Below are positions 30,821 through 64,000 of a stretch of 64,000 nt of DNA, in pieces. The stretch comes from Sipunculus nudus (taxonomy: Eukaryota > Annelida > Sipuncula > Golfingiida > Sipunculidae). The stretch lies in contig CM049307.1 in NCBI GenBank assembly GCA_026874595.1, positions 30,667,079 to 30,731,078 on the forward strand. The letters are read 5' to 3'. Within the stretch, counting starts at the first letter, position 1, and each line of letters opens with the position of its first letter. A program made the position numbers and the translations under genes. The notes under the pieces were generated by a model. The model saw nothing but the letters and a program-made list of their open reading frames with translations, was not told the origin of the DNA and made no database searches.

Positions 30821-30883
30821 GCTTGTGCAATGGGTTCATATATTGTTTTGAACCCAGTCAGAGTGGACTTTGCTAGAAAACTG

Positions 30884-31228
30884 TCAGCCTTGGCTAAGCT
30901 GGCTGACCTGGGCACAAGCAAACTTGTACATCATGTCCCTCATGTCTTTGACCATGACCGTCTCTTGTTTAAGGAAGGCTGGATTACTGGGCCTGCTTGG
31001 TTTCACCCGTTGTCGGAGGAGCTGAGGTGAGCTGAAACCATCAGTATGAGGCTTCAGCAGTTCCTGGGAACTGGGAATTGTTGAATCTGGAGTAGTCTGG
31101 GTCTTGAGCTTGAGGCTATATACTTGATGGTTAAGAGCAATGAGCTGGCAGCAAGTTCTGTAGAACTGCTCCTGTTGTTGCTTTGTTTTGCTTGAGAGAG
31201 TTGCCATCATGCAATTGTGAATGCACAT
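30884..31228 (-). CDS. Array copy 1 of the 108-aa protein gene (edge copy, stem-loop deleted)
   Basis: The outermost copy. The frame is intact with A102V and Phe at residue 59. A base change in the leader creates an extra in-frame ATG, adding MCIHNC before the usual start. The TATATATA box (31260) and cap motif are present, but the ~70 bp that should hold the 3' stem-loop are deleted (junction near 30850). Any transcript would therefore lack the normal 3' end. Confidence 0.5.
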   Translation of the reverse strand: MCIHNCMMATLSSKTKQQQEQFYRTCCQLIALNHQVYSLKLKTQTTPDSTIPSSQELLKPHTDGFSSPQLLRQRVKPSRPSNPAFLKQETVMVKDMRDMMYKFACAQVSQLSQG

Positions 31229-32198
31229 ACAAGAATGACATGGGAGAGTCTCAAACCTGTATATATAGTGGCCAAAGGGCTTGTTGTTGTATTCCTTGGA
31301 TGGACAGTTTGGCCAAACTGTGTGGATTGATCCACTTTGATTAACTGTGGCTGGTTGGATCCAGAGTTACAGTTTGGAAACTGATTGGCAAACTGGTCAC
31401 GGTCAGTGAACACAGATGTCTGTGATGTGTGCTTGGGCCGGGCACACATCAAAAGGCCCAGGCTGTGTTTGTTGTTGTAATTGGGGCCATGCTGGAAGAG
31501 AAACTTGATTTTGTCTGTTTGTATAACCTTGCATGGTTGGAAACAAGTTGGTGATCTTTCAACAAGCATGTTATTCTGCTTCTCCTAAGAGATTCAGACT
31601 ATACCATATTTCCTCAGGAGGCAAATCAAACCAGTAAAATAGACAAAAAATTAAATATAATATATACTGACTTTTAAGAACAAAACAATTTCTGATCATC
31701 AGTGACACCGCAAACAATAAATTAATTTCATATGGTTTGACAGGCTGCTGTTGAATCATGTACATTTGCTTAATAAATATTGTTCATCAGTGCGGTAAGC
31801 TTAATATGGCATAAGATGTTATTCTGGCAAATGTATATAATGAAAATAGGTATAAGTACGGCCTTTATTTAGTAGCTGATGATTTAAACAAAGGAGTTAG
31901 ATCAAGTTTCTGTTTTCATTATTATATATTCACGCACATTTCATTCTACTTTGATGATATCTATGGAATTGAGACAGGGGATCATAGGTTATAAGCCACT
32001 CTTTGATAATGTTTTTACCCAGATTGACTGTGGTCAGAATCTAAATACTTATAAATACAGGGGGAATTTCATGATATTTTGTTTTTGAAATGCAGGGCGT
32101 GTCTCATTTTGATGTCACTGGTGTTTGTGTGCTTGTGCAATGGGTTCATATATTGTTTTGCAGAAGGTGAAAGCAGCGATAGATTTGGATTAAGTAAT

Positions 32199-32214
32199 GG
32201 CTCTGAGAAGAGCC
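32199..32214 (-). terminator. Histone-type mRNA 3' stem-loop (representative, array copy 2)
   Basis: On the minus strand the sequence is GGCTCT-TCTC-AGAGCC. It fits every position of the metazoan replication-dependent histone stem-loop consensus GGYYYUUHUHARRRCC. The 5' flank CAAAAC is A-rich as usual; the 3' flank ATTAC departs from the usual ACCCA. It starts 43 nt after the stop codon, the normal histone spacing. No AATAAA follows the frame on this strand, and no clear purine-rich U7-binding element is visible. Other copies start at 33573, 34947, 36321, 37695, 39069, 40443, 41817, 43191, 44565, 45939, 47313, 48687, 50058, 51432, 52806, 54180, 55554, 56928, 58302, 59676, 61049 and 63133. Copy 1 has none. 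Confidence 0.72.
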
Positions 32215-32257
32215 GTTTTGACTGGCAACAGTCAGAGTGGACTTTGCTAGTCAACTG

Positions 32258-32584
32258 TCAGCCTTGGCTAAGCTGGCTGGCCTGGGCACAAGCAAACTTG
32301 TACATCATGTCCCTCATGTCTTTGACCATGACCGTCTCTTGTTTAAGGAAGGCTGGATTACTGGGCCTGCTTGGTTTCACCCGTTGTCGGAGGAGCTGAG
32401 GTGAGCTGAAACCATCAGTATGAGGCTTCAGCAGTTCCTGGGAACTGGGAATTGTTGAATCTGGAGTAGTCTGGGTCTTGAGCTTGAGGCTATATACTTG
32501 ATGGTTAAGAGCAATGAGCTGGCAGCAAGTTCTGTAGAACTGCTCCTGTTGTTGCTTTGTTTTGCTTGAGAGAGTTGCCATCAT
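32258..32584 (-). CDS. Array copy 2: 108-aa protein of unknown function, histone-gene-like unit
   Basis: Reference copy. Intronless frame starting MMATLSSKTK; I do not recognise the family. Residues 11-35 (rich in Gln, with CC and a following LIALNHQVYSLKLK) look helical. Residues 36-77 are Pro/Ser/Thr-rich and probably disordered, with SP/TP-type sites and a basic LLRQRVKPSR patch. Residues 79-104 form a second likely helix with MVKDMRDMMYKF. There are 14 Lys/Arg against 7 Asp/Glu, so the protein is mildly basic. No signal peptide, membrane segment or histone fold is evident. Codon use (CTC, CAG, AAG, AGC, GCC) and higher GC than the spacer support coding. TATA, cap motif and histone stem-loop bracket it tightly. 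Function is unknown; cell-cycle-regulated expression is inferred only from the 3' end. Confidence 0.6.
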   Translation of the reverse strand: MMATLSSKTKQQQEQFYRTCCQLIALNHQVYSLKLKTQTTPDSTIPSSQELLKPHTDGFSSPQLLRQRVKPSRPSNPAFLKQETVMVKDMRDMMYKFACAQASQLSQG

Positions 32585-32606
32585 GCAGTTGTGAATGCAC
32601 AGACAA

Positions 32607-32641
32607 GAATGACATGGGAGAGTCTCAAACCTGTAATTATA
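32607..32641 (-). promoter_or_regulatory. Histone-like core promoter: TATA box and TCATTC cap site (representative, copy 2)
   Basis: Minus-strand TATAATTA at 32641-32634, with cap motif TCATTC at 32612-32607. Its A (32610) lies 31 nt from the first T of the TATA box. TCATTCT nearly matches the PyCATTCPu cap signal described for histone genes. A 26-nt leader then runs to the ATG at 32584. Most other copies have TATATATA instead (for example 31260-31267 in copy 1). The box always lies 50-57 bp from the ATG except in copy 23, where an LTR separates them. Copy 11 has TCGTTC in place of TCATTC. Confidence 0.6.
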
Positions 32642-32677
32642 GTGGCCAAAGGGCTTGTTGTTGTATTCCTTTGATGG

Positions 32678-32695
32678 ACAGTTTGGCCAAACTGT
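32678..32695. promoter_or_regulatory. 18-bp perfect palindrome upstream of the array promoter (representative)
   Basis: ACAGTTTGGCCAAACTGT, a perfect dyad, sits 37 bp upstream of the TATA box in each unit and could bind a dimeric factor. A second imperfect dyad (GTGGATTGATCCAC) follows at 32697. Copies 10 and 16 carry TTTTGCC in its centre and copy 6 TTTGACC, breaking the symmetry. Confidence 0.4.
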
Positions 32696-33631
32696 GTGGA
32701 TTGATCCACTTTGATTAACTGTGGCTGGTTGGATCCAGAGTTACAGTTTGGAAACTGATTGGCAAACTGATCACGGTCAGTGAACACAGATGTCTGTGAT
32801 GTGTGCTTGGGCCGGGCACACATCAAAAGGCCCAGGCTGTGTTTGTTGTTGTAATTGGGACCATGCTGGAAGAGAAACTTGATTGTGTCTGTTTGTACAA
32901 CCTTGCGTGGTTGGAAACAAGTTGGTGATCTTTCAACAAGCATGTTATTCTGCTTCTCCTAAGAGATTCAGACTGTACCATATTTCCTCAGGAGGCAAAT
33001 AAAACCAGTAAAATAGAAAAAAAATTAAATATAATATATACTGACTTTTAAGAACAAAACAATTTCTGATCATCAGTGACACCGCAAACAATAAATTAAT
33101 TTCATATGGTTTGACAGGCTGCTGTTGAATCATGTACATTTGCTTAATAAATATTGTTCATCAGTGCGGTAAGCTTAATATGGCATAAGATGTTATTCTG
33201 GCAAATGTATATAATGATAATAGGTATAAGTACGGCAGTTATTTAGTAGCTGATGATTTAAACAGAGGAGTTAGATCAAGTTTCTGTTTTCATTATTATA
33301 TATTCACGCACATTTCATTCTACTTTGATGATATCTATGGAATTGAGACAGGGGATCATAGGTTATAAGCCACTCTTTGATAATGTTTTTACCCAGATTG
33401 ACTGTGGTCAGAATCTAAATACTTATAAATACAGGGGGAATTTCATGATATTTTGTTTTTGAAATGCAGGGCGTGTCTCATTTGGATGTCACTGGTGTTT
33501 GTGTGCTTGTGCAATGGGTTCATATATTGTTTTGCAGAAGGTGAAAGCAGCGGTAGATTTGGATTAAGTAATGGCTCTGAGAAGAGCCGTTTTGACTGGC
33601 AACAGTCAGAGTGGACTTTGCTAGAAAACTG

Positions 33632-33958
33632 TCAGCCTTGGCTAAGCTGGCTGGCCTGGGCACAAGCAAACTTGTACATCATGTCCCTCATGTCTTTGAC
33701 CATGACCGTCTCTTGTTTAAGGAAAGCTGGATTACTGGGCCTGCTTGGTTTCACCCGTTGTCGGAGGAGCTGAGGTGAGCTGAGACCATCAGTATGAGGC
33801 TTCAGCAGTTCCTGGGAACTGGGAATTGTTGAATCTGGAGTAGTCTGGGTCTTGAGCTTGAGGCTATATACTTGATGGTTAAGAGCAATGAGCTGGCAGC
33901 AAGTTCTGTAGAACTGCTCCTGTTGTTGCTTTGTTTTGCTTGAGAGAGTTGCCATCAT
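33632..33958 (-). CDS. Array copy 3 of the 108-aa protein gene
   Basis: Frame intact, Leu59, TATATATA-type promoter, stem-loop at 33573. Shares private variants (CTAAGG at 34361, ATAAAGATAATAGG downstream) with copy 5, exactly 2,748 bp away. Confidence 0.58.
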   Translation of the reverse strand: MMATLSSKTKQQQEQFYRTCCQLIALNHQVYSLKLKTQTTPDSTIPSSQELLKPHTDGLSSPQLLRQRVKPSRPSNPAFLKQETVMVKDMRDMMYKFACAQASQLSQG

Positions 33959-35005
33959 GCAATTGTGAATGCACAGACAAGAATGACATGGGAGAGTCTC
34001 AAACCTGTATATATAGTGGCCAAAGGGCTTGTTGTTGTATTCCTTGGATGGACAGTTTGGCCAAACTGTGTGGATTGATCCACTTTGATTAACTGTGGCT
34101 GGTTGGATCCAGAGTTACAGTTTGGAAACTGATTGGCAAACTGGTCACGGTCAGTGAACACAGATGTCTGTGATGTGTGCTTGGGCCGGGCACACATCAA
34201 AAGGCCCAGGCTGTGTTTGTTGTTGTAATTGGGGCCATGCTGGAAGAGAAACTTGATTGTGTCTGTTTGTATAACCTTGCATGGTTGGAAACAAGTTGGT
34301 GATCTTTCAACAAGCATGTTATTCTGCTTCTCCTAAGAGATTCAGACTATACCATATTTCCTAAGGAGGCAAATCAAACCAGTAAAATAGACAAAAAATT
34401 AAATATAATATATACTGACTTTTAAGAACAAAACAATTTCTGATCATCAGTGACACCGCAAACAATAAATTAATTTCATATGGTTTGACAGGCTGCTGTT
34501 GAATCATGTACATTTGCTTAATAAATATTGTTCATCAGTGCGGTAAGCTTAATATGGCATAAGATGTTATTCTGGCAAATGTATATAAAGATAATAGGTA
34601 TAAGTACGGCCGTTATTTAGTAGCTGATGATTTAAACAGAGGAGTTAGATCAAGTTTCTGTTTTCATTATTATATATTCACGCACATTTCATTCTACTTT
34701 GATGATATCTATGGAATTGAGACAGGGGATCATAGGTTATAAGCCGCTCTTTGATAATGTTTTTACCCAGATTGACTGTGGTCAATATCTAAATACTTAT
34801 AAATACAGGGGGAATTTCATGATATTTTGTTTTTGAAATGCAGGGCGTGTCTCATTTTGATGTCACTGGTGTTTGTGTGCTTGTGCAATGGGTTCATATA
34901 TTGTTTTGCAGAAGGTGAAAGCAGCGGTAGATTTGGATTATGTAATGGCTCTGAGAAGAGCCGTTTTGACTGGCAACAGTCAGAGTGGACTTTGCTAGAA
35001 AACTG

Positions 35006-35332
35006 TCAGCCTTGGCTAAGCTGGCTGGCCTGGGCACAAGCAAACTTGTACATCATGTCCCTCATGTCTTTGACCATGACCGTCTCTTGTTTAAGGAAAG
35101 CTGGATTACTGGGCCTGCTTGGTTTCACCCGTTGTCGGAGGAGCTGAGGTGAGCTGAGACCATCAGTATGAGGCTTCAGCAGTTCCTGGGAACTGGGAAT
35201 TGTTGAATCTGGAGTAGTCTGGGTCTTGAGCTTGAGGCTATATACTTGATGGTTAAGAGCAATGAGCTGGCAGCAAGTTCTGTAGAACTGCTCCTGTTGT
35301 TGCTTTGTTTTGCTTGAGAGAGTTGCCATCAT
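35006..35332 (-). CDS. Array copy 4 of the 108-aa protein gene
   Basis: Frame intact, Leu59, TATAATTA-type promoter, stem-loop at 34947 with a nearby base change (TACATAATCC after the stem). Confidence 0.58.
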   Translation of the reverse strand: MMATLSSKTKQQQEQFYRTCCQLIALNHQVYSLKLKTQTTPDSTIPSSQELLKPHTDGLSSPQLLRQRVKPSRPSNPAFLKQETVMVKDMRDMMYKFACAQASQLSQG

Positions 35333-36379
35333 GCAGTTGTGAATGCACAGACAAGAATGACATGGGAGAGTCTCAAACCTGTAATTATAGTGGCCAAAGG
35401 GCTTGTTGTTGTATTCCTTTGATGGACAGTTTGGCCAAACTGTGTGGATTGATCCACTTTGATTAACTGTGGCTGGTTGGATCCAGAGTTACAGTTTGGA
35501 AACTGATTGGCAAACTGATCACGGTCAGTGAACACAGATGTCTGTGATGTGTGCTTGGGCCGGGCACACATCAAAAGGCCCAGGCTGTGTTTGTTGTTGT
35601 AATTGGGACCATGCTGGAAGAGAAACTTGATTGTGTCTGTTTGTACAACCTTGCGTGGTTGGAAACAAGTTGGTGATCTTTCAACAAGCATGTTATTCTG
35701 CTTCTCCTAAGAGATTCAGACTGTACCATATTTCCTCAGGAGGCAAATAAAACCAGTAAAATAGAAAAAAAATTAAATATAATATATACTGACTTTTAAG
35801 AACAAAACAATTTCTGATCATCAGTGACACCGCAAACAATAAATTAATTTCATATGGTTTGACAGGCTGCTGTTGAATCATGTACATTTGCTTAATAAAT
35901 ATTGTTCATCAGTGCGGTAAGCTTAATATGGCATAAGATGTTATTCTGGCAAATGTATATAATGATAATAGGTATAAGTACGGCAGTTATTTAGTAGCTG
36001 ATGATTTAAACAGAGGAGTTAGATCAAGTTTCTGTTTTCATTATTATATATTCACGCACATTTCATTCTACTTTGATGATATCTATGGAATTGAGACAGG
36101 GGATCATAGGTTATAAGCCACTCTTTGATAAAGTTTTTACCCAGATTGACTGTGGTCAGAATCTAAATACTTATAAATACAGGGGGAATTTCATGATATT
36201 TTGTTTTTGAAATGCAGGGCGTGTCTCATTTTGATGTCACTGGTGTTTGTGTGCTTGTGCAATGGGTTCATATATTGTTTTGCAGAAGGTGAAAGCAGCG
36301 GTAGATTTGGATTAAGTAATGGCTCTGAGAAGAGCCGTTTTGACTGGCAACAGTCAGAGTGGACTTTGCTAGAAAACTG

Positions 36380-36706
36380 TCAGCCTTGGCTAAGCTGGCT
36401 GGCCTGGGCACAAGCAAACTTGTACATCATGTCCCTCATGTCTTTGACCATGACCGTCTCTTGTTTAAGGAAAGCTGGATTACTGGGCCTGCTTGGTTTC
36501 ACCCGTTGTCGGAGGAGCTGAGGTGAGCTGAGACCATCAGTATGAGGCTTCAGCAGTTCCTGGGAACTGGGAATTGTTGAATCTGGAGTAGTCTGGGTCT
36601 TGAGCTTGAGGCTATATACTTGATGGTTAAGAGCAATGAGCTGGCAGCAAGTTCTGTAGAACTGCTCCTGTTGTTGCTTTGTTTTGCTTGAGAGAGTTGC
36701 CATCAT
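36380..36706 (-). CDS. Array copy 5 of the 108-aa protein gene
   Basis: Frame intact, Leu59, TATATATA-type promoter, stem-loop at 36321. Near-duplicate of copy 3 at two units' distance. Confidence 0.58.
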   Translation of the reverse strand: MMATLSSKTKQQQEQFYRTCCQLIALNHQVYSLKLKTQTTPDSTIPSSQELLKPHTDGLSSPQLLRQRVKPSRPSNPAFLKQETVMVKDMRDMMYKFACAQASQLSQG

Positions 36707-37753
36707 GCAATTGTGAATGCACAGACAAGAATGACATGGGAGAGTCTCAAACCTGTATATATAGTGGCCAAAGGGCTTGTTGTTGTATTCCTTGGATGGA
36801 CAGTTTGGCCAAACTGTGTGGATTGATCCACTTTGATTAACTGTGGCTGGTTGGATCCAGAGTTACAGTTTGGAAACTGATTGGCAAACTGGTCACGGTC
36901 AGTGAACACAGATGTCTGTGATGTGTGCTTGGGCCGGGCACACATCAAAAGGCCCAGGCTGTGTTTGTTGTTGTAATTGGGGCCATGCTGGAAGAGAAAC
37001 TTGATTGTGTCTGTTTGTATAACCTTGCATGGTTGGAAACAAGTTGGTGATCTTTCAACAAGCATGTTATTCTGCTTCTCCTAAGAGATTCAGACTATAC
37101 CATATTTCCTAAGGAGGCAAATCAAACCAGTAAAATAGACAAAAAATTAAATATAATATATACTGACTTTTAAGAACAAAACAATTTCTGATCATCAGTG
37201 ACACCGCAAACAATAAATTAATTTCATATGGTTTGACAGGCTGCTGTTGAATCATGTACATTTGCTTAATAAATATTGTTCATCAGTGCGGTAAGCTTAA
37301 TATGGCATAAGATGTTATTCTGGCAAATGTATATAAAGATAATAGGTATAAGTACGGCCGTTATTTAGTAGCTGATGATTTAAACAGAGGAGTTAGATCA
37401 AGTTTCTGTTTTCATTATTATATATTCACGCACATTTCATTCTACTTTGATGATATCTATGGAATTGAGACAGGGGATCATAGGTTATAAGCCGCTCTTT
37501 GATAATGTTTTTACCCAGATTGACTGTGGTCAATATCTAAATACTTATAAATACAGGGGGAATTTCATGATATTTTGTTTTTGAAATGCAGGGCGTGTCT
37601 CATTTTGATGTCACTGGTGTTTGTGTGCTTGTGCAATGGGTTCATATATTGTTTTGCAGAAGGTGAAAGCAGCGGTAGATTTGGATTAAGTAATGGCTCT
37701 GAGAAGAGCCGTTTTGACTGGCAACAGTCAGAGTGGACTTTGCTAGAAAACTG

Positions 37754-38080
37754 TCAGCCTTGGCTAAGCTGGCTGGCCTGGGCACAAGCAAACTTGTACA
37801 TCATGTCCCTCATGTCTTTGACCATGACCGTCTCTTGTTTAAGGAAGGCTGGATTACTGGGCCTGCTTGGTTTCACCCGTTGTCGGAGGAGCTGAGGTGA
37901 GCTGAGACCATCAGTATGAGGCTTCAGCAGTTCCTGGGAACTGGGAATTGTTGAATCTGGAGTAGTCTGGGTCTTGAGCTTGAGGCTATATACTTGATGG
38001 TTAAGAGCAATGAGCTGGCAGCAAGTTCTGTAGAACTGCTCCTGTTGTTGCTTTGTTTTGCTTGAGAGAGTTGCCATCAT
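37754..38080 (-). CDS. Array copy 6 of the 108-aa protein gene
   Basis: Frame intact, Leu59, TATAATTA-type promoter, stem-loop at 37695. The upstream palindrome is altered to TTTGACC. Confidence 0.58.
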   Translation of the reverse strand: MMATLSSKTKQQQEQFYRTCCQLIALNHQVYSLKLKTQTTPDSTIPSSQELLKPHTDGLSSPQLLRQRVKPSRPSNPAFLKQETVMVKDMRDMMYKFACAQASQLSQG

Positions 38081-39127
38081 GCAGTTGTGAATGCACAGAC
38101 AAGAATGACATGGGAGAGTCTCAAACCTGTAATTATAGTGGCGAAAGGGCTTGTTGTTGTATTCCTTTGATGGACAGTTTGACCAAACTGTGTGGATTGA
38201 TCCACTTTGATTAACTGTGGCTGGTTGGATCCAGAGTTACAGTTTGGAAACTGATTGGCAAACTGATCACGGTCAGTGAACACAGATGTCTGTGATGTGT
38301 GCTTGGGCCGGGCACACATCAAAAGGCCCAGGCTGTGTTTGTTGTTGTAATTGGGACCATGCTGGAAGAGAAACTTGATTGTGTCTGTTTGTACAACCTT
38401 GCGTGGTTGGAAACAAGTTGGTGATCTTTCAACAAGCATGTTATTCTGCTTCTCCTAAGAGATTCAGACTGTACCATATTTCCTCAGGAGGCAAATAAAA
38501 CCAGTAAAATAGAAAAAAAATTAAATATAATATATACTGACTTTTAAGAACAAAACAATTTCTGATCATCAGTGACACCGCAAACAATAAATTAATTTCA
38601 TATGGTTTGACAGGCTGCTGTTGAATCATGTTCATTTGCTTAATAAATATTGTTCATCAGTGCGGTAAGCTTAATATGGCATAAGATGTTATTCTGGCAA
38701 ATGTATATAATGATAATAGGTATAAGTACGGCAGTTATTTAGTAGCTGATGATTTAAACAGAGGAGTTAGATCAAGTTTCTGTTTTCATTATTATATATT
38801 CACGCACATTTCATTCTACTTTGATGATATCTATGGAATTGAGACAGGGGATCATAGGTTATAAGCCACTCTTTGATAATGTTTTTACCCAGATTGACTG
38901 TGGTCAGAATCTAAATACTTATAAATACAGGGGGAATTTCATGATATTTTGTTTTTGAAATGCAGGGCGTGTCTCATTTTGATGTCACTGGTGTTTGTGT
39001 GCTTGTGCAATGGGTTCATATATTGTTTTGCAGAAGGTGAAAGCAGCGGTAGATTTGGATTAAGTAATGGCTCTGAGAAGAGCCGTTTTGACTGGCAACA
39101 GTCAGAGTGGACTTTGCTAGAAAACTG

Positions 39128-39454
39128 TCAGCCTTGGCTAAGCTGGCTGGCCTGGGCACAAGCAAACTTGTACATCATGTCCCTCATGTCTTTGACCATG
39201 ACCGTCTCTTGTTTAAGGAAGGCTGGATTACTGGGCCTGCTTGGTTTCACCCGTTGTCGGAGGAGCTGAGGTGAGCTGAGACCATCAGTATGAGGCTTCA
39301 GCAGTTCCTGGGAACTGGGAATTGTTGAATCTGGAGTAGTCTGGGTCTTGAGCTTGAGGCTATATACTTGATGGTTAAGAGCAATGAGCTGGCAGCAAGT
39401 TCTGTAGAACTGCTCCTGTTGTTGCTTTGTTTTGCTTGAGAGAGTTGCCATCAT
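39128..39454 (-). CDS. Array copy 7 of the 108-aa protein gene
   Basis: Frame intact, Leu59, TATATATA-type promoter, stem-loop at 39069. It closes the alternating promoter-type block of copies 1-7. Confidence 0.58.
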   Translation of the reverse strand: MMATLSSKTKQQQEQFYRTCCQLIALNHQVYSLKLKTQTTPDSTIPSSQELLKPHTDGLSSPQLLRQRVKPSRPSNPAFLKQETVMVKDMRDMMYKFACAQASQLSQG

Positions 39455-40501
39455 GCAATTGTGAATGCACAGACAAGAATGACATGGGAGAGTCTCAAAC
39501 CTGTATATATAGTGGCCAAAGGGCTTGTTGTTGTATTCCTTGGATGGACAGTTTGGCCAAACTGTGTGGATTGATCCACTTTGATTAACTGTGGCTGGTT
39601 GGATCCAGAGTTACAGTTTGGAAACTGATAGGCAAACTGGTCACGGTCAGTGAACACAGATGTCTGTGATGTGTGCTTGGGCCGGGCACACATCAAAAGG
39701 CCCAGGCTGTGTTTGTTGTTGTAATTGGGGCCATGCTGGAAGAGAAACTTGATTGTGTCTGTTTGTATAACCTTGCATGGTTGGAAACAAGTTTGTGATC
39801 TTTCAACAAGCATGTTATTCTGCTTCTCCTAAGAGATTCAGACTATACCATATTTCCTCAGGAGGCAAATCAAACCAGTAAAATAGACAAAAAATTAAAT
39901 ATAATATATACTGACTTTTAAGAACAAAACAATTTCTGATCATCAGTGACACCGCAAACAATAAATTAATTTCATATGGTTTGACAGGCTGCTGTTGAAT
40001 CATGTACATTTGCTTAATAAATATTGTTCATCAGTGCGGTAAGCTTAATATGGCATAAGATGTTATTCTGGCAAATGTATATAATGATAATAGGTATAAG
40101 TACAGCCGTTATTTAGTAGCTGATGATTTAAACAGAGGAGTTAGATCAAGTTTCTGTTTTCATTATTATATATTCACGCACATTTCATTCTACTTTGATG
40201 ATATCTATGGAATTGAGACAGGGGATCATAGGTTATAAGCCACTCTTTGATAATGTTTTTACCCAGATTGACTGTGGTCAGAATCTAAATACTTATAAAT
40301 ACAGGGGGAATTTCATGATATTTTGTTTTTGAAATGCAGGGCGTGTCTCATTTTGATGTCACTGGTGTTTGTGTGCTTGTGCAATGGGTTCATATATTGT
40401 TTTGCAGAAGGTGAAAGCAGCGGTAGATTTGGATTAAGTAATGGCTCTGAGAAGAGCCGTTTTGACTGGCAACAGTCAGAGTGGACTTTGCTAGAAAACT
40501 G

Positions 40502-40828
40502 TCAGCCTTGGCTAAGCTGGCTGGCCTGGGCACAAGCAAACTTGTACATCATGTCCCTCATGTCTTTGACCATGACCGTCTCTTGTTTAAGGAAGGCTGG
40601 ATTACTGGGCCTGCTTGGTTTCACCCGTTGTCGGAGGAGCTGAGGTGAGCTGAGACCATCAGTATGAGGCTTCAGCAGTTCCTGGGAACTGGGAATTGTT
40701 GAATCTGGAGTAGTCTGGGTCTTGAGCTTGAGGCTATATACTTGATGGTTAAGAGCAATGAGCTGGCAGCAAGTTCTGTAGAACTGCTCCTGTTGTTGCT
40801 TTGTTTTGCTTGAGAGAGTTGCCATCAT
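40502..40828 (-). CDS. Array copy 8 of the 108-aa protein gene
   Basis: Frame intact, Leu59, TATATATA-type promoter, stem-loop at 40443. First copy of the third sequence type, which dominates the right half. Confidence 0.58.
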   Translation of the reverse strand: MMATLSSKTKQQQEQFYRTCCQLIALNHQVYSLKLKTQTTPDSTIPSSQELLKPHTDGLSSPQLLRQRVKPSRPSNPAFLKQETVMVKDMRDMMYKFACAQASQLSQG

Positions 40829-41875
40829 GCAGTTGTGAATGCACAGACAAGAATGACATGGGAGAGTCTCAAACCTGTATATATAGTGGCCAAAGGGCTT
40901 GTTGTTGTATTCCTTTGATGGACAGTTTGGCCAAACTGTGTGGATTGATCCACTTTGATTAACTGTGGCTGGTTGGATCCAGAGTTACAGTTTGGAAACT
41001 GATTGGCAAACTGGTCACGGTCAGTGAACACAGATGTCTGTGATGTGTGCTTGGGCCGGGCACACATCAAAAGGCCCAGGCTGTGTTTGTTGTTGTAATT
41101 GGGGCCATGCTGGAAGAGAAACTTGATTGTGTCTGTTTGTATAACCTTGCATGGTTGGAAACAAGTTGGTGATCTTTCAACAAGCATGTTATTCTGCTTC
41201 TCCTAAGAGATTCAGACTATACCATATTTCCTCAGGAGGCAAATCAAACCAGTAAAATAGACAAAAAATTAAATATAATATATACTGACTTTTAAGAACA
41301 AAACAATTTCTGATCATCAGTGACACCGCAAACAATAAATTAATTTCATATGGTTTGACAGGCTGCTGTTGAATCATGTACATTTGCTTAATAAATATTG
41401 TTCATCAGTGCGGTAAGCTTAATATGGCATAAGATGTTATTCTGGCAAATGTATATAATGATAATAGGTATAAGTACGGCCGTTATTTAGTAGCTGATGA
41501 TTTAAACAGAGGAGTTAGATCAAGTTTCTGTTTTCATTATTATATATTCACGCACATTTCATTCTACTTTGATGATATCTATGGAATTGAGACAGGGGAT
41601 CATAGGTTATAAGCCGCTCTTTGATAATGTTTTTACGCAGATTGACTGTGGTCAGAATCTAAATACTTATAAATACAGGGGGAATTTCATGATATTTTGT
41701 TTTTGAAATGCAGGGCGTGTCTCATTTTGATGTCACTGGTGTTTGTGTGCTTGTGCAATGGGTTCATATATTGTTTTGCAGAAGGTGAAAGCAGCGGTAG
41801 ATTTGGATTAAGTAATGGCTCTGAGAAGAGCCGTTTTGACTGGCAACAGTCAGAGTGGACTTTGCTAGAAAACTG

Positions 41876-53191: not shown

Positions 53192-54238
53192 GCAGTTGTG
53201 AATGCACAGACAAGAATGACATGGGAGAGTCTCAAACCTGTATATATAGTGGCCAAAGGGCTTGTTGTTGTATTCCTTTGATGGACAGTTTGGCCAAACT
53301 GTGTGGATTGATCCACTTTGATTAACTGTGGCTGGTTGGATCCAGAGTTACAGTTTGGAAACTGATTGGCAAACTGGTCACGGTCAGTGAACACAGATGT
53401 CTGTGATGTGTGCCTGGGCCGGGCACACATCAAAAGGCCCAGGCTGTGTTTGTTGTTGTAATTGGGGCCATGCTGGAAGAGAAACTTGATTGTGTCTGTT
53501 TGTATAACCTTGCATGGTTGGAAACAAGTTGGTGATCTTTCAACAAGCATGTTATTCTGCTTCTCCTAAGAGATTCAGACTATACCATATTTCCTCAGGA
53601 GGCAAATCAAACCAGTAAAATAAACAAAAAATTAAATATAATATATACTGACTTTTAAGAACAAAACAATTTCTGATCATCAGTGACACCGCAAATAATA
53701 AATTAATTTCATATGGTTTGACAGGCTGCTGTTGAATCATGTACATTTGCTTAATAAATATTGTTCATCAGTGCGGTAAGCTTAATATGGCATAAGATGT
53801 TATTCTGGCAAATGTATATAATGATAATAGGTATAAGTACGGCCGTTATTTAGTAGCTGATGATTTAAACAGAGGAGTTGGATCAAGTTTCTGTTTTCAT
53901 TATTATATATTCACGCACATTTCATTCTACTTTGATGATATCTATGGAATTGAGACAGGGGATCATAGGTTATAAGCCACTCTTTGATAATGTTTTTACC
54001 CAGATTGACTGTGGTCAGAATCTAAATACTTATAAATACAGGGGGAATTTCATGATATTTTGTTTTTGAAATGCAGGGCGTGTCTCATTTTGATGTCACT
54101 GGTGTTTGTGTGCTTGTGCAATGGGTTCATATATTGATTTGCAGAAGGTGAAAGCAGCGGTAGATTTGGATTAAGTAATGGCTCTGAGAAGAGCCGTTTT
54201 GACTGGCAACAGTCAGAGTGGACTTTGCTAGAAAACTG

Positions 54239-54565
54239 TCAGCCTTGGCTAAGCTGGCTGGCCTGGGCACAAGCAAACTTGTACATCATGTCCCTCATGT
54301 CTTTGACCATGACCGTCTCTTGTTTAAGGAAGGCTGGATTACTGGGCCTGCTTGGTTTCACCCGTTGTCGGAGGAGCTGAGGTGAGCTGAGACCATCAGT
54401 ATGAGGCTTCAGCAGTTCCTGGGAACTGGGAATTGTTGAATCTGGAGTAGTCTGGGTCTTGAGCTTGAGGCTATATACTTGATGGTTAAGAGCAATGAGC
54501 TGGCAGCAAGTTCTGTAGAACTGCTCCTGTTGTTGCTTTGTTTTGCTTGAGAGAGTTGCCATCAT
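54239..54565 (-). CDS. Array copy 18 of the 108-aa protein gene
   Basis: Frame intact, Leu59, TATATATA-type promoter, stem-loop at 54180. Carries a TTGATTTGC variant (54136) shared only with copy 21, 4,122 bp away. Confidence 0.58.
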   Translation of the reverse strand: MMATLSSKTKQQQEQFYRTCCQLIALNHQVYSLKLKTQTTPDSTIPSSQELLKPHTDGLSSPQLLRQRVKPSRPSNPAFLKQETVMVKDMRDMMYKFACAQASQLSQG

Positions 54566-55612
54566 GCAGTTGTGAATGCACAGACAAGAATGACATGGGA
54601 GAGTCTCAAACCTGTATATATAGTGGCCAAAGGGCTTGTTGTTGTATTCCTTTGATGGACAGTTTGGCCAAACTGTGTGGATTGATCCACTTTGATTAAC
54701 TGTGGCTGGTTGGATCCAGAGTTACAGTTTGGAAACTGATTGGCAAACTGGTCACGGTCAGTGAACACAGATGTCTGTGATGTGTGCTTGGGCCGGGCAC
54801 ACATCAAAAGGCCCAGGCTGTGTTTGTTGTTGTAATTGGGGCCATGCTGGAAGAGAAACTTGATTGTGTCTGTTTGTATAACCTTGCATGGTTGGAAACA
54901 AGTTGGTGATCTTTCAACAAGCATGTTATTCTGCTTCTCCTAAGAGATTCAGACTATACCATATTTCCTCAGGAGGCAAATCAAACCAGTAAAATAAACA
55001 AAAAATTAAATATAATATATACTGACTTTTAAGAACAAAACAATTTCTGATCATCAGTGACACCGCAAACAATAAATTAATTTCATATGGTTTGACAGGC
55101 TGCTGTTGAATCATGTACATTTGCTTAATAAATATTGTTCATCAGTGCGGTAAGCTTTATATGGCATAAGATGTTATTCTGGCAAATGTATATAATGATA
55201 ATAGGTATAAGTACGGCCGTTATTTAGTAGCTGATGATTTAAACAGAGGAGTTAGATCAAGTTTCTGTTTTCATTATTATATATTCACGCACATTTCATT
55301 CTACTTTGATGATATCTATGGAATTGAGACAGGGGATCATAGGTTATAAGCCACTCTTTGATAATGTTTTTACCCAGATTGACTGTGGTCAGAATCTAAA
55401 TACTTATAAATACAGGGGGAATTTCATGATATTTTGTTTTAGAAATGCAGGGCGTGTCTCATTTTGATGTCACTGGTGTTTGTGTGCTTGTGCAATGGGT
55501 TCATATATTGTTTTGCAGAAGGTGAAAGCAGCGGTAGATTTGGATTAAGTAATGGCTCTGAGAAGAGCCGTTTTGACTGGCAACAGTCAGAGTGGACTTT
55601 GCTAGAAAACTG

Positions 55613-55939
55613 TCAGCCTTGGCTAAGCTGGCTGGCCTGGGCACAAGCAAACTTGTACATCATGTCCCTCATGTCTTTGACCATGACCGTCTCTTGTTTA
55701 AGAAAGGCTGGATTACTGGGCCTGCTTGGTTTCACCCGTTGTCGGAGGAGCTGAGGTGAGCTGAGACCATCAGTATGAGGCTTCAGCAGTTCCTGGGAAC
55801 TGGGAATTGTTGAATCTGGAGTAGTCTGGGTCTTGAGCTTGAGGCTATATACTTGATGGTTAAGAGCAATGAGCTGGCAGCAAGTTCTGTAGAACTGCTC
55901 CTGTTGTTGCTTTGTTTTGCTTGAGAGAGTTGCCATCAT
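55613..55939 (-). CDS. Array copy 19 of the 108-aa protein gene
   Basis: Frame intact with a synonymous Phe79 change. TATATATA-type promoter, stem-loop at 55554. Spacer variant TAAGCTTTAT is shared with a unit 4,122 bp to the right. Confidence 0.58.
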   Translation of the reverse strand: MMATLSSKTKQQQEQFYRTCCQLIALNHQVYSLKLKTQTTPDSTIPSSQELLKPHTDGLSSPQLLRQRVKPSRPSNPAFLKQETVMVKDMRDMMYKFACAQASQLSQG

Positions 55940-56986
55940 GCAGTTGTGAATGCACAGACAAGAATGACATGGGAGAGTCTCAAACCTGTATATATAGTGG
56001 CCAAAGGGCTTGTTGTTGTATTCCTTTGATGGACAGTTTGGCCAAACTGTGTGGATTGATCCACTTTGATTAACTGTGGCTGGTTGGATCCAGAGTTACA
56101 GTTTGGAAACTGATTGGCAAACTGGTCACGGTCAGTGAACACAGATGTCTGTGATGTGTGCTTGGGCCGGGCACACATCAAAAGGCCCAGGCTGTGTTTG
56201 TTGTTGTAATTGGGGCCATGCTGGAAGAGAAACTTGATTGTGTCTGTTTGTATAACCTTGCATGGTTGGAAACAAGTTGGTGATCTTTCAACAAGCATGT
56301 TATTCTGCTTCTCCTAAGAGATTCAGACTATACCATATTTCCTCAGGAGGCAAATCAAACCAGTAAAATAAACAAAAAATTAAATATAATATATACTGAC
56401 TTTTAAGAACAAAACAATTTCTGATCATCAGTGACACCGCAAACAATAAATTAATTTCATATGGTTTGACAGGCTGCTGTTGAATCATGTACATTTGCTT
56501 AATAAATATTGTTCATCAGTGCGGTAAGCTTAATATGGCATAAGATGTTATTCTGGCAAATGTATATAATGATAATAGGTATAAGTACGGCCGTTATTTA
56601 GTAGCTGATGACTTAAACAGAGGAGTTGGATCAAGTTTCTGTTTTCATTATTATATATTCACGCACATTTCATTCTACTTTGATGATATCTATGGAATTG
56701 AGACAGGGGATCATAGGTTATAAGCCACTCTTTGATAATGTTTTTACCCAGATTGACTGTGGTCAGAATCTAAATACTTATAAATACAGGGGGAATTTCA
56801 TGATATTTTGTTTTTGAAATGCAGGGCGTGTCTCATTTTGATGTCACTGGTGTTTGTGTGCTTGTGCAATGGGTTCATATATTGTTTTGCAGAAGGTGAA
56901 AGCAGCGGTAGATTTGGATTAAGTAATGGCTCTGAGAAGAGCCGTTTTGACTGGCAACAGTCAGAGTGGACTTTGCTAGAAAACTG

Positions 56987-57313
56987 TCAGCCTTGGCTAA
57001 GCTGGCTGGCCTGGGCACAAGCAAACTTGTACATCATGTCCCTCATGTCTTTGACCATGACCGTCTCTTGTTTAAGGAAGGCTGGATTACTGGGCCTGCT
57101 TGGTTTCACCCGTTGTCGGAGGAGCTGAGGTGAGCTGAGACCATCAGTATGAGGCTTCAGCAGTTCCTGGGAACTGGGAATTGTTGAATCTGGAGTAGTC
57201 TGGGTCTTGAGCTTGAGGCTATATACTTGATGGTTAAGAGCAATGAGCTGGCAGCAAGTTCTGTAGAACTGCTCCTGTTGTTGCTTTGTTTTGCTTGAGA
57301 GAGTTGCCATCAT
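56987..57313 (-). CDS. Array copy 20 of the 108-aa protein gene
   Basis: Frame intact, Leu59, TATATATA-type promoter, stem-loop at 56928. Spacer variant CTCAGTAGG is shared with copies 22 and 23. Confidence 0.58.
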   Translation of the reverse strand: MMATLSSKTKQQQEQFYRTCCQLIALNHQVYSLKLKTQTTPDSTIPSSQELLKPHTDGLSSPQLLRQRVKPSRPSNPAFLKQETVMVKDMRDMMYKFACAQASQLSQG

Positions 57314-58360
57314 GCAGTTGTGAATGCACAGACAAGAATGACATGGGAGAGTCTCAAACCTGTATATATAGTGGCCAAAGGGCTTGTTGTTGTATTCCTT
57401 TGATGGACAGTTTGGCCAAACTGTGTGGATTGATCCACTTTGATTAACTGTGGCTGGTTGGATCCAGAGTTACAGTTTGGAAACTGATTGGCAAACTGGT
57501 CACGGTCAGTGAACACAGATGTCTGTGATGTGTGCTTGGGCCGGGCACACATCAAAAGGCCCAGGCTGTGTTTGTTGTTGTAATTGGGGCCATGCTGGAA
57601 GAGAAACTTGATTGTGTCTGTTTGTATAACCTTGCATGGTTGGAAACAAGTTGGTGATCTTTCAACAAGCATGTTATTCTGCTTCTCCTAAGAGATTCAG
57701 ACTATACCATATTTCCTCAGTAGGCAAATCAAACCAGTAAATTAGACAAAAAATTAAATATAATATATACTGACTTTTAAGAACAAAACAATTTCTGATC
57801 ATCAGTGACACCGCAAACAATAAATTAATTTCATATGGTTTGACAGGCTGCTGTTGAATCATGTACATTTGCTTAATAAATATTGTTCATCAGTGCGGTA
57901 AGCTTAATATGGCCTAAGATGTTATTCTGGCAAATGTATATAATGATAATAGGTATAAGTACGGCCGTTATTTAGTAGCTGATGATTTAAACAGAGGAGT
58001 TAGATCAAGTTTCTGTTTTCATTATTATATATTCACGCACATTTCATTCTACTTTGATGATATCTATGGAATTGAGACAGGGGATCATAGGTTATAAGCC
58101 ACTCTTTGATAATGTTTTTACCCAGATTGACTGTGGTCAGAATCTAAATACTTATAAATACAGGGGGAATTTCATGATATTTTGTTTTTGAAATGCAGGG
58201 CGTGTCTCATTTTGATGTCACTGGTGTTTGTGTGCTTGTGCAATGGGTTCATATATTGATTTGCAGAAGGTGAAAGCAGCGGTAGATTTGGATTAAGTAA
58301 TGGCTCTGAGAAGAGCCGTTTTGACTGGCAACAGTCAGAGTGGACTTTGCTAGAAAACTG

Positions 58361-58687
58361 TCAGCCTTGGCTAAGCTGGCTGGCCTGGGCACAAGCAAAC
58401 TTGTACATCATGTCCCTCATGTCTTTGACCATGACCGTCTCTTGTTTAAGGAAGGCTGGATTACTGGGCCTGCTTGGTTTCACCCGTTGTCGGAGGAGCT
58501 GAGGTGAGCTGAGACCATCAGTATGAGGCTTCAGCAGTTCCTGGGAACTGGGAATTGTTGAATCTGGAGTAGTCTGGGTCTTGAGCTTGAGGCTATATAC
58601 TTGATGGTTAAGAGCAATGAGCTGGCAGCAAGTTCTGTAGAACTGCTCCTGTTGTTGCTTTGTTTTGCTTGAGAGAGTTGCCATCAT
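58361..58687 (-). CDS. Array copy 21 of the 108-aa protein gene
   Basis: Frame intact, Leu59, TATATATA-type promoter, stem-loop at 58302. Trimer partner of copy 18. Confidence 0.58.
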   Translation of the reverse strand: MMATLSSKTKQQQEQFYRTCCQLIALNHQVYSLKLKTQTTPDSTIPSSQELLKPHTDGLSSPQLLRQRVKPSRPSNPAFLKQETVMVKDMRDMMYKFACAQASQLSQG

Positions 58688-59734
58688 GCAGTTGTGAATG
58701 CACAGACAAGAATGACATGGGAGAGTCTCAAACCTGTATATATAGTGGCCAAAGGGCTTGTTGTTGTATTCCTTTGATGGACAGTTTGGCCAAACTGTGT
58801 GGATTGATCCACTTTGATTAACTGTGGCTGGTTGGATCCAGAGTTACAGTTTGGAAACTGATTGGCAAACTGGTCACGGTCAGTGAACACAGATGTCTGT
58901 GATGTGTGCTTGGGCCGGGCACACATCAAAAGGCCCAGGCTGTGTTTGTTGTTGTAATTGGGGCCATGCTGGAAGAGAAACTTGATTGTGTCTGTTTGTA
59001 TAACCTTGCATGGTTGGAAACAAGTTGGTGATCTTTCAACAAGCATGTTATTCTGCTTCTCCTAAGAGATTCAGACTATACCATATTTCCTCAGGAGGCA
59101 AATCAAACCAGTAAAATAAACAAAAAATTAAATATAATATATACTGACTTTTAAGAACAAAACAATTTCTGATCATCAGTGACACCGCAAACAATAAATT
59201 AATTTCATATGGTTTGACAGGCTGCTGTTGAATCATGTACATTTGCTTAATAAATATTGTTCATCAGTGCGGTAAGCTTTATATGGCATAAGATGTTATT
59301 CTGGCAAATGTATATAATGATAATAGGTATAAGTACGGCCGTTATTTAGTAGCTGATGATTTAAACAGAGGAGTTAGATCAAGTTTCTGTTTTCATTATT
59401 ATATATTCACGCACATTTCATTCTACTTTGATGATATCTATGGAATTGAGACAGGGGATCATAGGTTATAAGCCACTCTTTGATAATGTTTTTACCCAGA
59501 TTGACTGTGGTCAGAATCTAAATACTTATAAATACAGGGGGAATTTCATGATATTTTGTTTTAGAAATGCAGGGCGTGTCTCATTTTGATGTCACTGGTG
59601 TTTGTGTGCTTGTGCAATGGGTTCATATATTGTTTTGCAGAAGGTGAAAGCAGCGGTAGATTTGGATTAAGTAATGGCTCTGAGAAGAGCCGTTTTGACT
59701 GGCAACAGTCAGAGTGGACTTTGCTAGAAAACTG

Positions 59735-60061
59735 TCAGCCTTGGCTAAGCTGGCTGGCCTGGGCACAAGCAAACTTGTACATCATGTCCCTCATGTCTTT
59801 GACCATGACCGTCTCTTGTTTAAGAATGGCTGGATTACTGGGCCTGCTTGGTTTCACCCGTTGTCGGAGGAGCTGAGGTGAGCTGAGACCATCAGTATGA
59901 GGCTTCAGCAGTTCCTGGGAACTGGGAATTGTTGAATCTGGAGTAGTCTGGGTCTTGAGCTTGAGGCTATATACTTGATGGTTAAGAGCAATGAGCTGGC
60001 AGCAAGTTCTGTAGAACTGCTCCTGTTGTTGCTTTGTTTTGCTTGAGAGAGTTGCCATCAT
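59735..60061 (-). CDS. Array copy 22 of the 108-aa protein gene
   Basis: Frame intact with F79I. TATATATA-type promoter, stem-loop at 59676. Trimer partner of copy 19. Confidence 0.58.
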   Translation of the reverse strand: MMATLSSKTKQQQEQFYRTCCQLIALNHQVYSLKLKTQTTPDSTIPSSQELLKPHTDGLSSPQLLRQRVKPSRPSNPAILKQETVMVKDMRDMMYKFACAQASQLSQG

Positions 60062-61107
60062 GCAGTTGTGAATGCACAGACAAGAATGACATGGGAGAGT
60101 CTCAAACCTGTATATATAGTGGCCAAAGGGCTTGTTGTTGTATTCCTTTGATGGACAGTTTGGCCAAACTGTGTGGATTGATCCACTTTGATTAACTGTG
60201 GCTGGTTGGATCCAGAGTTACAGTTTGGAAACTGATTGGCAAACTGGTCACAGTCAGTGAACACAGATGTCTGTGATGTGTGCTTGGGCCGGGCACACAT
60301 CAAAAGGCCCAGGCTGTGTTTGTTGTTGTAATTGGGGCCATGCTGGAAGAGAAACTTGATTGTGTCTGTTTGTATAACCTTGCATGGTTGAAAACAAGTT
60401 GGTGATCTTTCAACAAGCATGTTATTCTGCTTCTCCTAAGAGATTCAGACTATACCATATTTCCTCAGTAGGCAAATCAAACCAGTAAATTAGACAAAAA
60501 ATTAAATATAATATATACTGACTTTTAAGAACAAAACAATTTCTGATCATCAGTGACACCGCAAACAAAAAATTAATTTCATATGGTTTGACAGGCTGCT
60601 GTTGAATCATGTACATTTGCTTAATAAATATTGTTCATCAGTGCGGTAAGCTAAATATGGCATAAGATGTTATTCTGGCAAATGTATATAATGATAATAG
60701 GTATAAGTACGGCCGTTATTTAGTAGCTGATGTTTAAACAGAGGAGTTAGATCAAGTTTCTGTTTTCATTATTATATATTCACGCACATTTCATTCTACT
60801 TTGATGATATCTATGGAATTGAGACAGGGGATCATAGGTTATAAGCCACTCTTTGATAATGTTTTTACCCAGATTGACTGTGGTCAGAATCTAAATACTT
60901 ATAAATACAGGGGGAATTTCATGATATTTTGTTTTTGAAATGCAGGGCGTGTCTCATTTTGATGTCACTGGTGTTTGTGTGCTTGTGCAATGGGTTCATA
61001 TATTGTTTTGCAGAAGGTGAAAGCAGCGGTAGATTTGGATTAAGTAATGGCTCTGAGAAGAGCCGTTTTGACTGGCAACAGTCAGAGTGGACTTTGCTAG
61101 AAAACTG

Positions 61108-61434
61108 TCAGCCTTGGCTAAGCTGGCTGGCCTGGGCACAAGCAAACTTGTACATCATGTCCCTCATGTCTTTGACCATGACCCTCTCTTGTTTAAGGAA
61201 GGCTGGATTACTGGGCCTGCTTGGTTTCACCCGTTGTCGGAGGAGCTGAGGTGAGCTGAGACCATCAGTATGAGGCTTCAGCAGTTCCTGGGAACTGGGA
61301 ATTGTTGAATCTGGAGTAGTCTGGGTCTTGAGCTTGAGGCTATATACTTGATGGTTAAGAGCAATGAGCTGGCAGCAAGTTCTGTAGAACTGCTCCTGTT
61401 GTTGCTTTGTTTTGCTTGAGAGAGTTGCCATCAT
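61108..61434 (-). CDS. Array copy 23 of the 108-aa protein gene, promoter displaced by an LTR
   Basis: Frame intact with T84R; stem-loop at 61049 intact. A solo LTR (61440-62146) sits in the leader right before the ATG, so the native TATA box (62197) is now over 760 bp away. The frame stays open 12 codons into the LTR, giving a possible start at 61470. The LTR reads in the same direction as the gene and could supply a promoter. Confidence 0.52.
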   Translation of the reverse strand: MMATLSSKTKQQQEQFYRTCCQLIALNHQVYSLKLKTQTTPDSTIPSSQELLKPHTDGLSSPQLLRQRVKPSRPSNPAFLKQERVMVKDMRDMMYKFACAQASQLSQG

Positions 61435-61439
61435 GCAGT

Positions 61440-62146
61440 TGATACAATGTGGGGTTGGGGATGTCCCCACACTGTATCACATACGGTTGCTGGAAGTGGT
61501 GGCTGACAATGTTCCAAGACCAGTTTGATGACAGAAGCCTTTATTCAATAGCAAGAGTTCTGGGATAATCTCTGCTGAGGCCTGCCGGCCTGGCAAGAGA
61601 TTCCCCGTCTCTCTCTGACTCTCAGCGCGCACTACAGATAGTTTTGTTACAAAGCTTTCACGTGACATATGATACATACATATCCATATTTCTGCATTTC
61701 GTCATAAAAGCTAAACCTTATTGGATGACTCAAAGTAGGTCACAATTACATCAGAGTTATAAGTGTTTTTCCTATCTTTCGTGAGATCTGATTGGACAAA
61801 AGTGCTATGGAAAATCCCAAGTCTGACCTGACATACATCCAGTTATAGACTGACCTGCAAGTCCTATTTCCAAACTCTATAAACATAATCTGCCTGCCTC
61901 ATCATAGAAACCAATTTAGAGCTAATTTTTGAGAGTACATTTAGGCTCTACAAACATACTGAATTACCATTAAATACTTGGTCATCTGATGAACATTAAT
62001 AATTCTTTGGCTCTGTCTGAATATCAGAACAGACTGAAACTAAGATTGATTTTCATTTGCCTCTAAAGTAAATTTTAGATGAAATATTGAAATATTCCTT
62101 TAAATATATGTCAAGTCACATATACACCCTTTCTCACTCCATAACA
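61440..62146 (-). mobile_element. Solo LTR of a retrotransposon
   Basis: A 707-bp insertion that begins TG (TGATACAATG) and ends CA (CATAACA). It is flanked by a perfect 4-bp target duplication CAGT (61436-61439 and 62147-62150). No coding frame, primer-binding site or second LTR is present, so it is most likely a solo LTR left by recombination. A 4-bp duplication fits Ty3/Gypsy-like integration. A minus-strand AATAAA (61545-61540) about 100 nt from the 61440 end, and CCAAT words further up, suggest minus orientation. The terminal 40 bp form a strong hairpin. Confidence 0.8.
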
Positions 62147-63191
62147 CAGTTGTGAATGCACAGACAAGAATGACATGGGAGAGTCTCAAACCTGTATATA
62201 TAGTGGCCAAAGGGCTTGTTTTTGTATTCCTTTGATGGACAGTTTGGCCAAACTGTGTGGATTGATCCACTTTGATTAACTGTGGCTGGTTGGACCCAGA
62301 GTTACAGTTTGGAACGGATTGGCAAACTGGTCACGGTCAGTGAACACAGATGTCTGTGATGTGTGCTTGGGCCGGGCACACATCAAAAGGCCCAGGCTGT
62401 GTTTGTTGTTGTAATTGGGGCCATGCTGGAAGAGAAACTTGATTGTGTCTGTTTGTATAACCTTGCATGGTTGGAAACAAGTTGGTGATCTTTCAACAAG
62501 CATGTTATTCTGCTTCTCCTAAGAGATTCAGACTATACCATATTTCCTCAGTAGGCAAATCAAACCAGTAAATTAGACAAAAAATTAAATATAATATATA
62601 CTGACTTTTAAGAACAAAACAATTTCTGATCATCAGTGACACCGCAAACAATAAATTAATTTCATATGGTTTGACAGGCTGCTGTTGAATCATGTACATT
62701 TGCTTAATAAATATTGTTCATCAGTGCGGTAAGCTTAATATGGCATAAGATGTTATTCTGGCAAATGTATATAATGATAATAGGTATAAGTACGGCCGTT
62801 ATTTAGTAGCTGATGATTTAAACAGAGGAGTTAGATCAAGTTTCTGTTTTCATTATTATATATTCACGCACATTTCATTCTACTTTGATGATATCTATGG
62901 AATTGAGACAGGGGATCATAGGTTATAAGCCACTCTTTGATAATGTTTTTACCCAGATTGACTGTGGTCAGAATCTAAATACTTACAAATACAGGGGGAA
63001 TTTCATGATATTTTGTTTTTGAAATGCAGGGCGTGTCTCCTTTTGATGTCACTGGTGTTTGTGTGCTTGTGCAATGGGTTCATATATTGTTTTGCAGAAG
63101 GTGAAAGCAGCGGTAGATTTCGATTAAGTAATGGCTCTGAGAAGAGCCGTTTTGACTGGCAATAGTCAGAGTGGACTTTGCTAGAAAACTG

Positions 63192-63518
63192 TCAGCCTTG
63201 GCTAAGCTGGCTGGCCTGGGCACAAGCAAACTTGTACATCATGTCCCTCATGCCTTTGACCATGACCGTCTCTTGTTTAAGGAAGGCTGGATTACTGGGC
63301 CTGCTTGGTTTCACCCGTTGTCGGAGGAGCTGAGGTGAGCTGAGACCATCAGTATGAGGCTTCAGCAGTTCCTGGGAACTGGGAATTGTTGAATCTGGAG
63401 TAGTCTGGGTCTTGAGCTTGAGGCTATATACTTGATGGTTAAGAGCAATGAGCTGGCAGCAAGTTCTGTAGAACTGCTCCTGTTGTTGCTTTGTTTTGCT
63501 TGAGAGAGTTGCCATCAT
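63192..63518 (-). CDS. Array copy 24 of the 108-aa protein gene
   Basis: Frame intact with D89G. TATATATA-type promoter, stem-loop at 63133. The unit continues upstream and the array runs off the window end. Confidence 0.58.
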   Translation of the reverse strand: MMATLSSKTKQQQEQFYRTCCQLIALNHQVYSLKLKTQTTPDSTIPSSQELLKPHTDGLSSPQLLRQRVKPSRPSNPAFLKQETVMVKGMRDMMYKFACAQASQLSQG

Positions 63519-64000
63519 GCAGTTGTGAATGCACAGACAAGAATGACATGGGAGAGTCTCAAACCTGTATATATAGTGGCCAAAGGGCTTGTTGTTGTAT
63601 TCCTTTGATGGACAGTTTGGCCAAACTGTGTGGATTGATCCACTTTGATTAACTGTGGCTGGTTGGATCCAGAGTTACAGTTTGGAAACTGATTGGCAAA
63701 CTGGTCACGGTCAGTGAACACAGATGTCTGTGATGGGTGCTTGGGCAGGGCACACATCAAAAGGCCCAGGCTGTGTTTGTTGTTGTAATTGGGGCCATGC
63801 TGGAAGAGAAACTTGATTGTGTCTGTTTGTATAACCTTGCATGGTTGGAAACAAGTTGGTGATCTTTCAACAAGCATGTTATTCTGCTTCTCCTAAGAGA
63901 TTCAGACTATACCATATTTCCTCAGGAGGCAAATCAAACCAGTAAAATAGACAAAAAATTAAATATAATATATACTGACTTTTAAGAACAAAACAATTTC

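Follow-up and report, generated by a model that had tools for sequence, protein, structure and literature searches.

A 64,000-nucleotide stretch of the Sipunculus nudus genome (C2:30667079-30731078 of the 1.43-Gb assembly; hereafter the window) carries part of a tandem array whose unit encodes a small non-histone protein in the layout of a replication-dependent histone gene. Comparison of sequences suggests that the array is quite probably an amplified, divergent member of a superfamily of small non-histone proteins using the replication-dependent histone expression route. This superfamily is apparently undescribed. The assembly, from one eukaryote, is the genome covered by all own-genome searches and family comparisons reported here. 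An initial annotation of the window had claimed at least 24 copies of a unit of ~1.37 kb, each with TATA box, cap motif, intronless frame and histone-type 3′ stem-loop (SL) in the order known from histones. In agreement with this we found 24 copies beginning inside the window and 49 gene-bearing copies in an array of ~75 kb, with a period of 1374 bp and 98-100% identity of the units to a reference unit. The order of the elements was read in that reference copy (Table 1), the cap-like motif being so called for its likeness to the cap consensus.

The 108-codon frame is, to judge from a diverged paralog, a real protein. Used as a query against the genome, the 108-aa sequence had 54 matches, namely the 49 array copies, one diverged match at C4:47.605M (E 1.7e-20) and four weak ones (E 1.4-5.2). 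Array and C4 proteins are identical at 52 of 103 residues over the aligned codons, and identity by codon position is 62, 72 and 33% for the first, second and third position, which indicates a preserved protein with saturated silent sites. The remaining five frames show 24-34% identity in the same comparison, with stops. Furthermore, a TATA-like box stands at -62 of the C4 gene, and 30 nt past the stop comes a GGCTCT-CAACTGTGT-AGAGCC hairpin with CAGATCT 12 nt further on. The arms of this hairpin are identical to those of the array and came up once when the stretch was shuffled 20000 times, and AATAAA or ATTAAA is absent over 1.5 kb past the stop. Other reading possibilities of the unit were rejected: a plus-strand frame of 95 aa belongs to the non-gene frames of the C4 comparison, an upstream minus-strand frame of 120 aa has 37 replacement and 10 silent variants, close to neutrality (33, with 2 stop and 12 silent), and for a plus-strand exon with splice-like edges, considered from the sequence, no support was found. 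A tRNA scan and Rfam at gathering cut-offs gave no match across the window.

The array and its C4 paralog have relatives elsewhere in the genome. A genome search for the pattern of SL plus histone downstream element (HDE) returned 102 places, and none in a reversed control. A good part of the loci examined were H1 genes, a positive control for the pattern; one was H2A-like, some were frameless, and the rest were mostly small non-histone genes. Protein searches with two members revealed an array of at least 60 superfamily matches at C2:72.583-72.685M (spacing 1660), and a further array of at least 26 at C3:79.207-79.257M (spacing 2034). They also gave at least 27 matches at C3:18.776-18.969M, where the members are clustered more loosely and occupy both strands; the pattern search added an array of at least 46 sites at C11:63.385-63.478M (spacing 1931). 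Together with the 49 copies of the window array this amounts to at least 208 superfamily copies plus many single loci, all counts being lower bounds that are based on 150 scored out of 230 protein candidates and on 100 of the 102 pattern places. A profile of 40 members, from which array and C4 proteins had been left out, ranked C4 at the top of 2111 sequences, with 27.7 bits and E 1.9e-7, followed by the array protein (15.4 bits, E 0.0012), the best of 2109 decoys reaching 8.9. Profile-profile comparison with the superfamily gave E 6.6e-6 and a probability of 85%. The superfamily consensus reads KF..AC.QL..LNN...RY.RA...EG.R...YEYA..AD.LD; the array and C4 proteins retain both helices, but their linker is longer and the RY.RA part is absent. 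The array is accordingly a divergent branch. Selection is seen to act on the protein across the superfamily, with dN/dS estimates of 0.11-0.42 in 11 of 11 pairs.

Signals for histone-type RNA ends accompany these genes. The standard SL has 16 nt, with a stem of 6 bp and a loop of 4 nt. It lies no more than 180 nt past the stop in 14 of 18 members that were picked solely by protein similarity (1000 shuffles: mean 0.005, maximum 1), and most superfamily members retain SL and HDE. In 26 SLs all 156 cells are paired and four of six stem pairs vary on both sides. The motif used to select these SLs is biased towards pairing, so more weight goes to the shuffle and slide controls than to the complete pairing: 12 double-change cells were counted versus 2.0 in shuffles, 0 of 500 of which reached that number, and a second measure, further pair types, was not above shuffles (263 of 500). 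Stem positions 2 (G-C) and 6 (T-A) are invariant, the G of position 2 being the base that, according to structural work, SLBP reads. An HDE like CAGATCTA lies ~12 nt past the SL in histone genes and superfamily loci, with ATATCTA in H4 and CAGTTCT in H3; the CAGATCT-like element at this distance is conserved and common to H1 genes. A TATA-like box stands 40-130 nt upstream of the ATG in 24 of 32 superfamily genes (50 shuffles: mean 2.7, maximum 7). For the processing machinery, we identified a single SLBP gene of two exons at C1:29.647-29.648M. The Rfam Histone3 model (RF00032) matched the array SLs on the minus strand with 28.3-30 bits (E 8e-6 to 4e-5 over 4227 families). Its genome scan gave 75 scored matches, 15 of them above the cut-off; six of these 15, including the best (36.9 bits), have a small non-histone frame in front of them, on C2, C3 or C14. 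The genome's top match adjoins the 3′ side of a superfamily member.

The product was described in the initial annotation as a non-histone protein of no recognised family, and this description holds. Pfam had no family above the cut-off for any member scanned, and for the array protein no match up to E 10; a PDB sequence search gave nothing for C4 and one chance match (E 1.4) for the array protein, and a PDB search with the family profile returned weak coiled-coil matches alone (best E 0.005). The structure prediction that the initial annotation had proposed yields a two-helix hairpin without histone fold for the 108-aa protein (helices 2-39 and 77-107, pLDDT 82, pTM 0.63), and the model of a further member, L066, has helices 3-43 and 47-98 (pLDDT 93.7, pTM 0.77). 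In these models the superfamily product folds into a short hairpin of antiparallel helices and is not a histone. Foldseek had no match at or below 0.001 (best E 0.19 for L066 and 1.8 for the array protein), and VIA Z values reached 12.0, which the tool counts as usual for common arrangements of helices. The array protein, with 14 K+R and 7 D+E per 108 residues, is not strongly basic, and superfamily pI values of 4.6-10.8 are not protamine-like.

Several observations weigh against the array being such a superfamily member with histone-type expression. The array SLs score below the Rfam Histone3 cut-off of 34, as do the H4 SLs of the genome's own histone repeat (33.3 bits). The C4 loop has 9 nt rather than 4. 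By itself the array protein is just weakly similar to the superfamily (15.4 bits). The most distant branch, that of C11 (L035 and L045, with L070 and L071), is tied to the rest mainly by one weak link, L070 (E 2.9e-5), and a search with L037 found no C11 array match at E 1. Four of the 18 protein-picked members have no standard SL; L061 and L062 retain the CAGATCTA element, and L065 and L066 have AATAAA-type signals downstream. For U7 snRNA (small nuclear RNA), a genome scan with Rfam RF00066 gave six matches, all below the cut-off, and the HDE complement combined with an Sm-like site, used as a pattern, occurred at 15 places versus 14 in the control; three candidate places from this pattern were examined and set aside. 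Within the array, premature stops occur in 7 of 49 copies, and the distinct frame variants (21 replacement, 4 stop and 9 silent) compare with ~24, 2 and 8 under neutrality, so the variation inside the array looks near neutral. Because of this variation and these stops, the array does not represent 49 maintained genes, and many copies may be spare. The idea of a multicopy non-histone gene with histone architecture, as the initial annotation put it, was strengthened by the C4 paralog, the conservation of the protein, the genome-wide family, the HDE and the SL covariation, and has to be narrowed with regard to the maintenance of all copies.

These numbers also bear on the possibility that the window array is a satellite-like relic, i.e. 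that a once-working member was amplified by unequal exchange and is now largely unconstrained, while the other members are real genes. We regard this as unlikely. Near-neutral variants and stops would fit it, and so would edge copy 1, which lost its SL, and two copies with a displaced TATA box. Two copies share an insertion in blocks 8952 bp apart and three copies show a 3529-bp period (window 61442-62138; C2:30.7590-30.7703M), which we take as signs of recent, ongoing unequal exchange. However, in the window the 108-aa frame is intact in 23 of 24 copies and the SL GGCTCTTCTCAGAGCC exact in 23 of 24, and over the whole array the frame is intact in 42 of 49 (three of those 42 being 107 aa), the SL exact in 45 and the HDE strictly matched in 46. 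The TATA box TATATATA is found at -57/-59 in 35 of 49; among the remaining 14 sites six read TATAATTA, five TATATATG and one TTTATATG, and two are displaced through insertion. Frame, TATATATA and exact SL are combined in 25 of 49 copies. In 42 full units, fewer sites vary in the frame (23 of 327) than outside it (130 of 1047; p = 0.006), which gene conversion could equally produce. The frame was moreover preserved since the split of array and C4, over a time that saturated the silent sites.

To a similarly low degree we would expect the genes to be of a dual mode like that of H2AX, with the SL serving a minor S-phase mRNA and the main product being polyadenylated. A precedent is given by H2AX itself in passages of PMC9526256, and L065 and L066, having AATAAA-type signals and no standard SL, suggest that some family members changed over to poly(A). 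The C4 gene with its 1.5 kb free of AATAAA and ATTAAA, and the retention of SL and HDE by most members, speak against this explanation. Slightly less likely still is a genetic conflict, by drive or suppression, among ampliconic gametogenic genes that took over the histone 3′ end to be expressed in germ cells. Several independent arrays from different branches with divergent sequences, and the recent homogenisation of the array copies, would be in line with such a conflict, whereas dN/dS below 0.43 in all 11 pairs indicates constraint and not fast adaptive change. It is hardly credible that open frames and a hairpin arose by chance within a satellite repeat and mimic a gene: other long frames do exist (plus strand, 95 aa; upstream minus strand, 120 aa) and Pfam and PDB are empty, but the C4 paralog, the pattern search (102 versus 0), the profile ranking, the SL covariation and the SLs in 14 of 18 members contradict it.

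Table 1. Positions of the array, its reference unit and the elements of the gene in the window.
Feature	Window positions	Strand	Remarks
Tandem array	30820..64000	minus	head-to-tail 1374-bp unit, gene on minus strand; extends past the window to C2:30772978
Edge copy 1	30820..32125	minus	frame and TATA box kept; ~68-bp deletion removed SL and HDE
Reference full unit (copy 3)	33500..34873	minus	
TATA box TATATATA	34008..34015	minus	57 nt upstream of ATG
Cap-like motif TCATTC	33981..33986	minus	~30 nt downstream of TATA box
108-codon frame including stop	33632..33958	minus	intronless-looking; unnamed helical-hairpin protein
Histone-type SL GGCTCTTCTCAGAGCC	33573..33588	minus	43 nt past stop
HDE-like element AATCCAAATCTA	33554..33565	minus	~12 nt past SL
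697-bp insertion	61442..62138		flanked by a 14-bp repeat; separates TATA box from frame in one copy; duplicate outside the window

Fragments of the unit from outside the 108-aa frame occur elsewhere, at C3:95916911-95917018 (L007; 108 bp, 95%) and C12:8968649-8968702 (L008; 54 bp, 87%), and the left flank of the array holds further tandem repeats (window 15476-16454 and 17949-18760) with periods of ~40, 135 and 166 bp. Histone-type ends were also found in other contexts. Dispersed H1 genes with SL and CAGATCTA HDE lie outside the five-histone repeat (L020, L021, L023, L028, L029, L031, L036, L040, L041, L048 and L049), and at L033 and L041, a family gene and an H1 gene, two successive histone-type SLs follow one frame. 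A dispersed cassette (L016, L022 and L050; C2:12.636-12.639M) comprises three small frames that are not related to one another, and behind each of them stands a histone-type SL; the HDE of L016 reads CGGTCTGG, and RF00032 and pattern matches with the same spacing occur at about nine other places. The other nine of the 15 Histone3 matches above the cut-off show the score and spacing pattern of this cassette, of which one, L016, was examined. The cassette frames scanned had no Pfam match, and the cassette is possibly a mobile element with histone-type 3′ ends. At L032 (C3:57.329M), L038 (C6:42.943M) and L051 (C10:43.722M), transposase-like remnant frames with a weak Mutator-like Pfam match below the cut-off are followed by an H1-type SL and HDE; here a transposase-like element may have taken up the 3′ end of an H1 gene.

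The superfamily resembles replication-dependent histone genes in having a TATA box, an intronless-looking frame behind a short leader, an SL 20-70 nt past the stop, an HDE and tandem repetition, and it has the same SL and CAGATCTA-like HDE as the H1 genes of this genome. It differs from histone genes (H1, H2A, H2B, H3 and H4) in its product, which is non-histone by Pfam, PDB sequence search and predicted fold, and the array unit carries a single gene, unlike the five-histone repeat of ~5.35 kb. As in H2AX-type dual 3′ ends, the SLs are located outside the main histone repeat; H2AX is, however, a histone and also yields poly(A) mRNA (passages of PMC9526256). Two long antiparallel helices are likewise found in the hairpins of Rad50, the PI3K p85 iSH2 domain, ESCRT-III and prefoldin, with no evidence of kinship (Foldseek best E 0.19). 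Histone mRNAs are described as the sole animal mRNAs that end in an SL, and passages of PMC9526256 and PMC2642717 make nearly the same statement for cellular mRNAs. A search of the open-access PMC literature, subscription papers being outside it, brought up no description of non-histone protein genes with histone SLs. We regard the gene class as apparently new; the RNA-end mechanism it apparently uses is already known.

If the array and its relatives use this histone route, transcription would start from the TATA box in cells that copy their DNA fast, most likely those of the germline or early embryo. SLBP would bind the SL, the U7 snRNP (small nuclear ribonucleoprotein) would pair with the HDE ~12 nt past it, and a cut between the two would leave an mRNA without poly(A), the level of which would follow S phase. 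Tandem arrays would give dosage by bulk synthesis from many copies, as they do for histones. The hairpin product, the linker of which is loose in the array protein, probably associates with itself or with a partner that may be required in amounts matching new chromatin, or by the egg. On balance we lean towards a second, non-histone class of replication-coupled genes in animals, a helical-hairpin superfamily, of more than 200 copies in this genome, with SL-ended mRNAs made by SLBP and U7 and a bulk product of S phase or the egg, which perhaps partners new histones in chromatin or in replication. It might have been overlooked so far because poly(A)-selected transcriptomes would miss it and Pfam has no name for it. 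Members without SL offer a natural comparison of two kinds of 3′ end. If true, so large a non-histone family with histone-type ends would break the histone-only rule and would show what else cells make in step with DNA replication.

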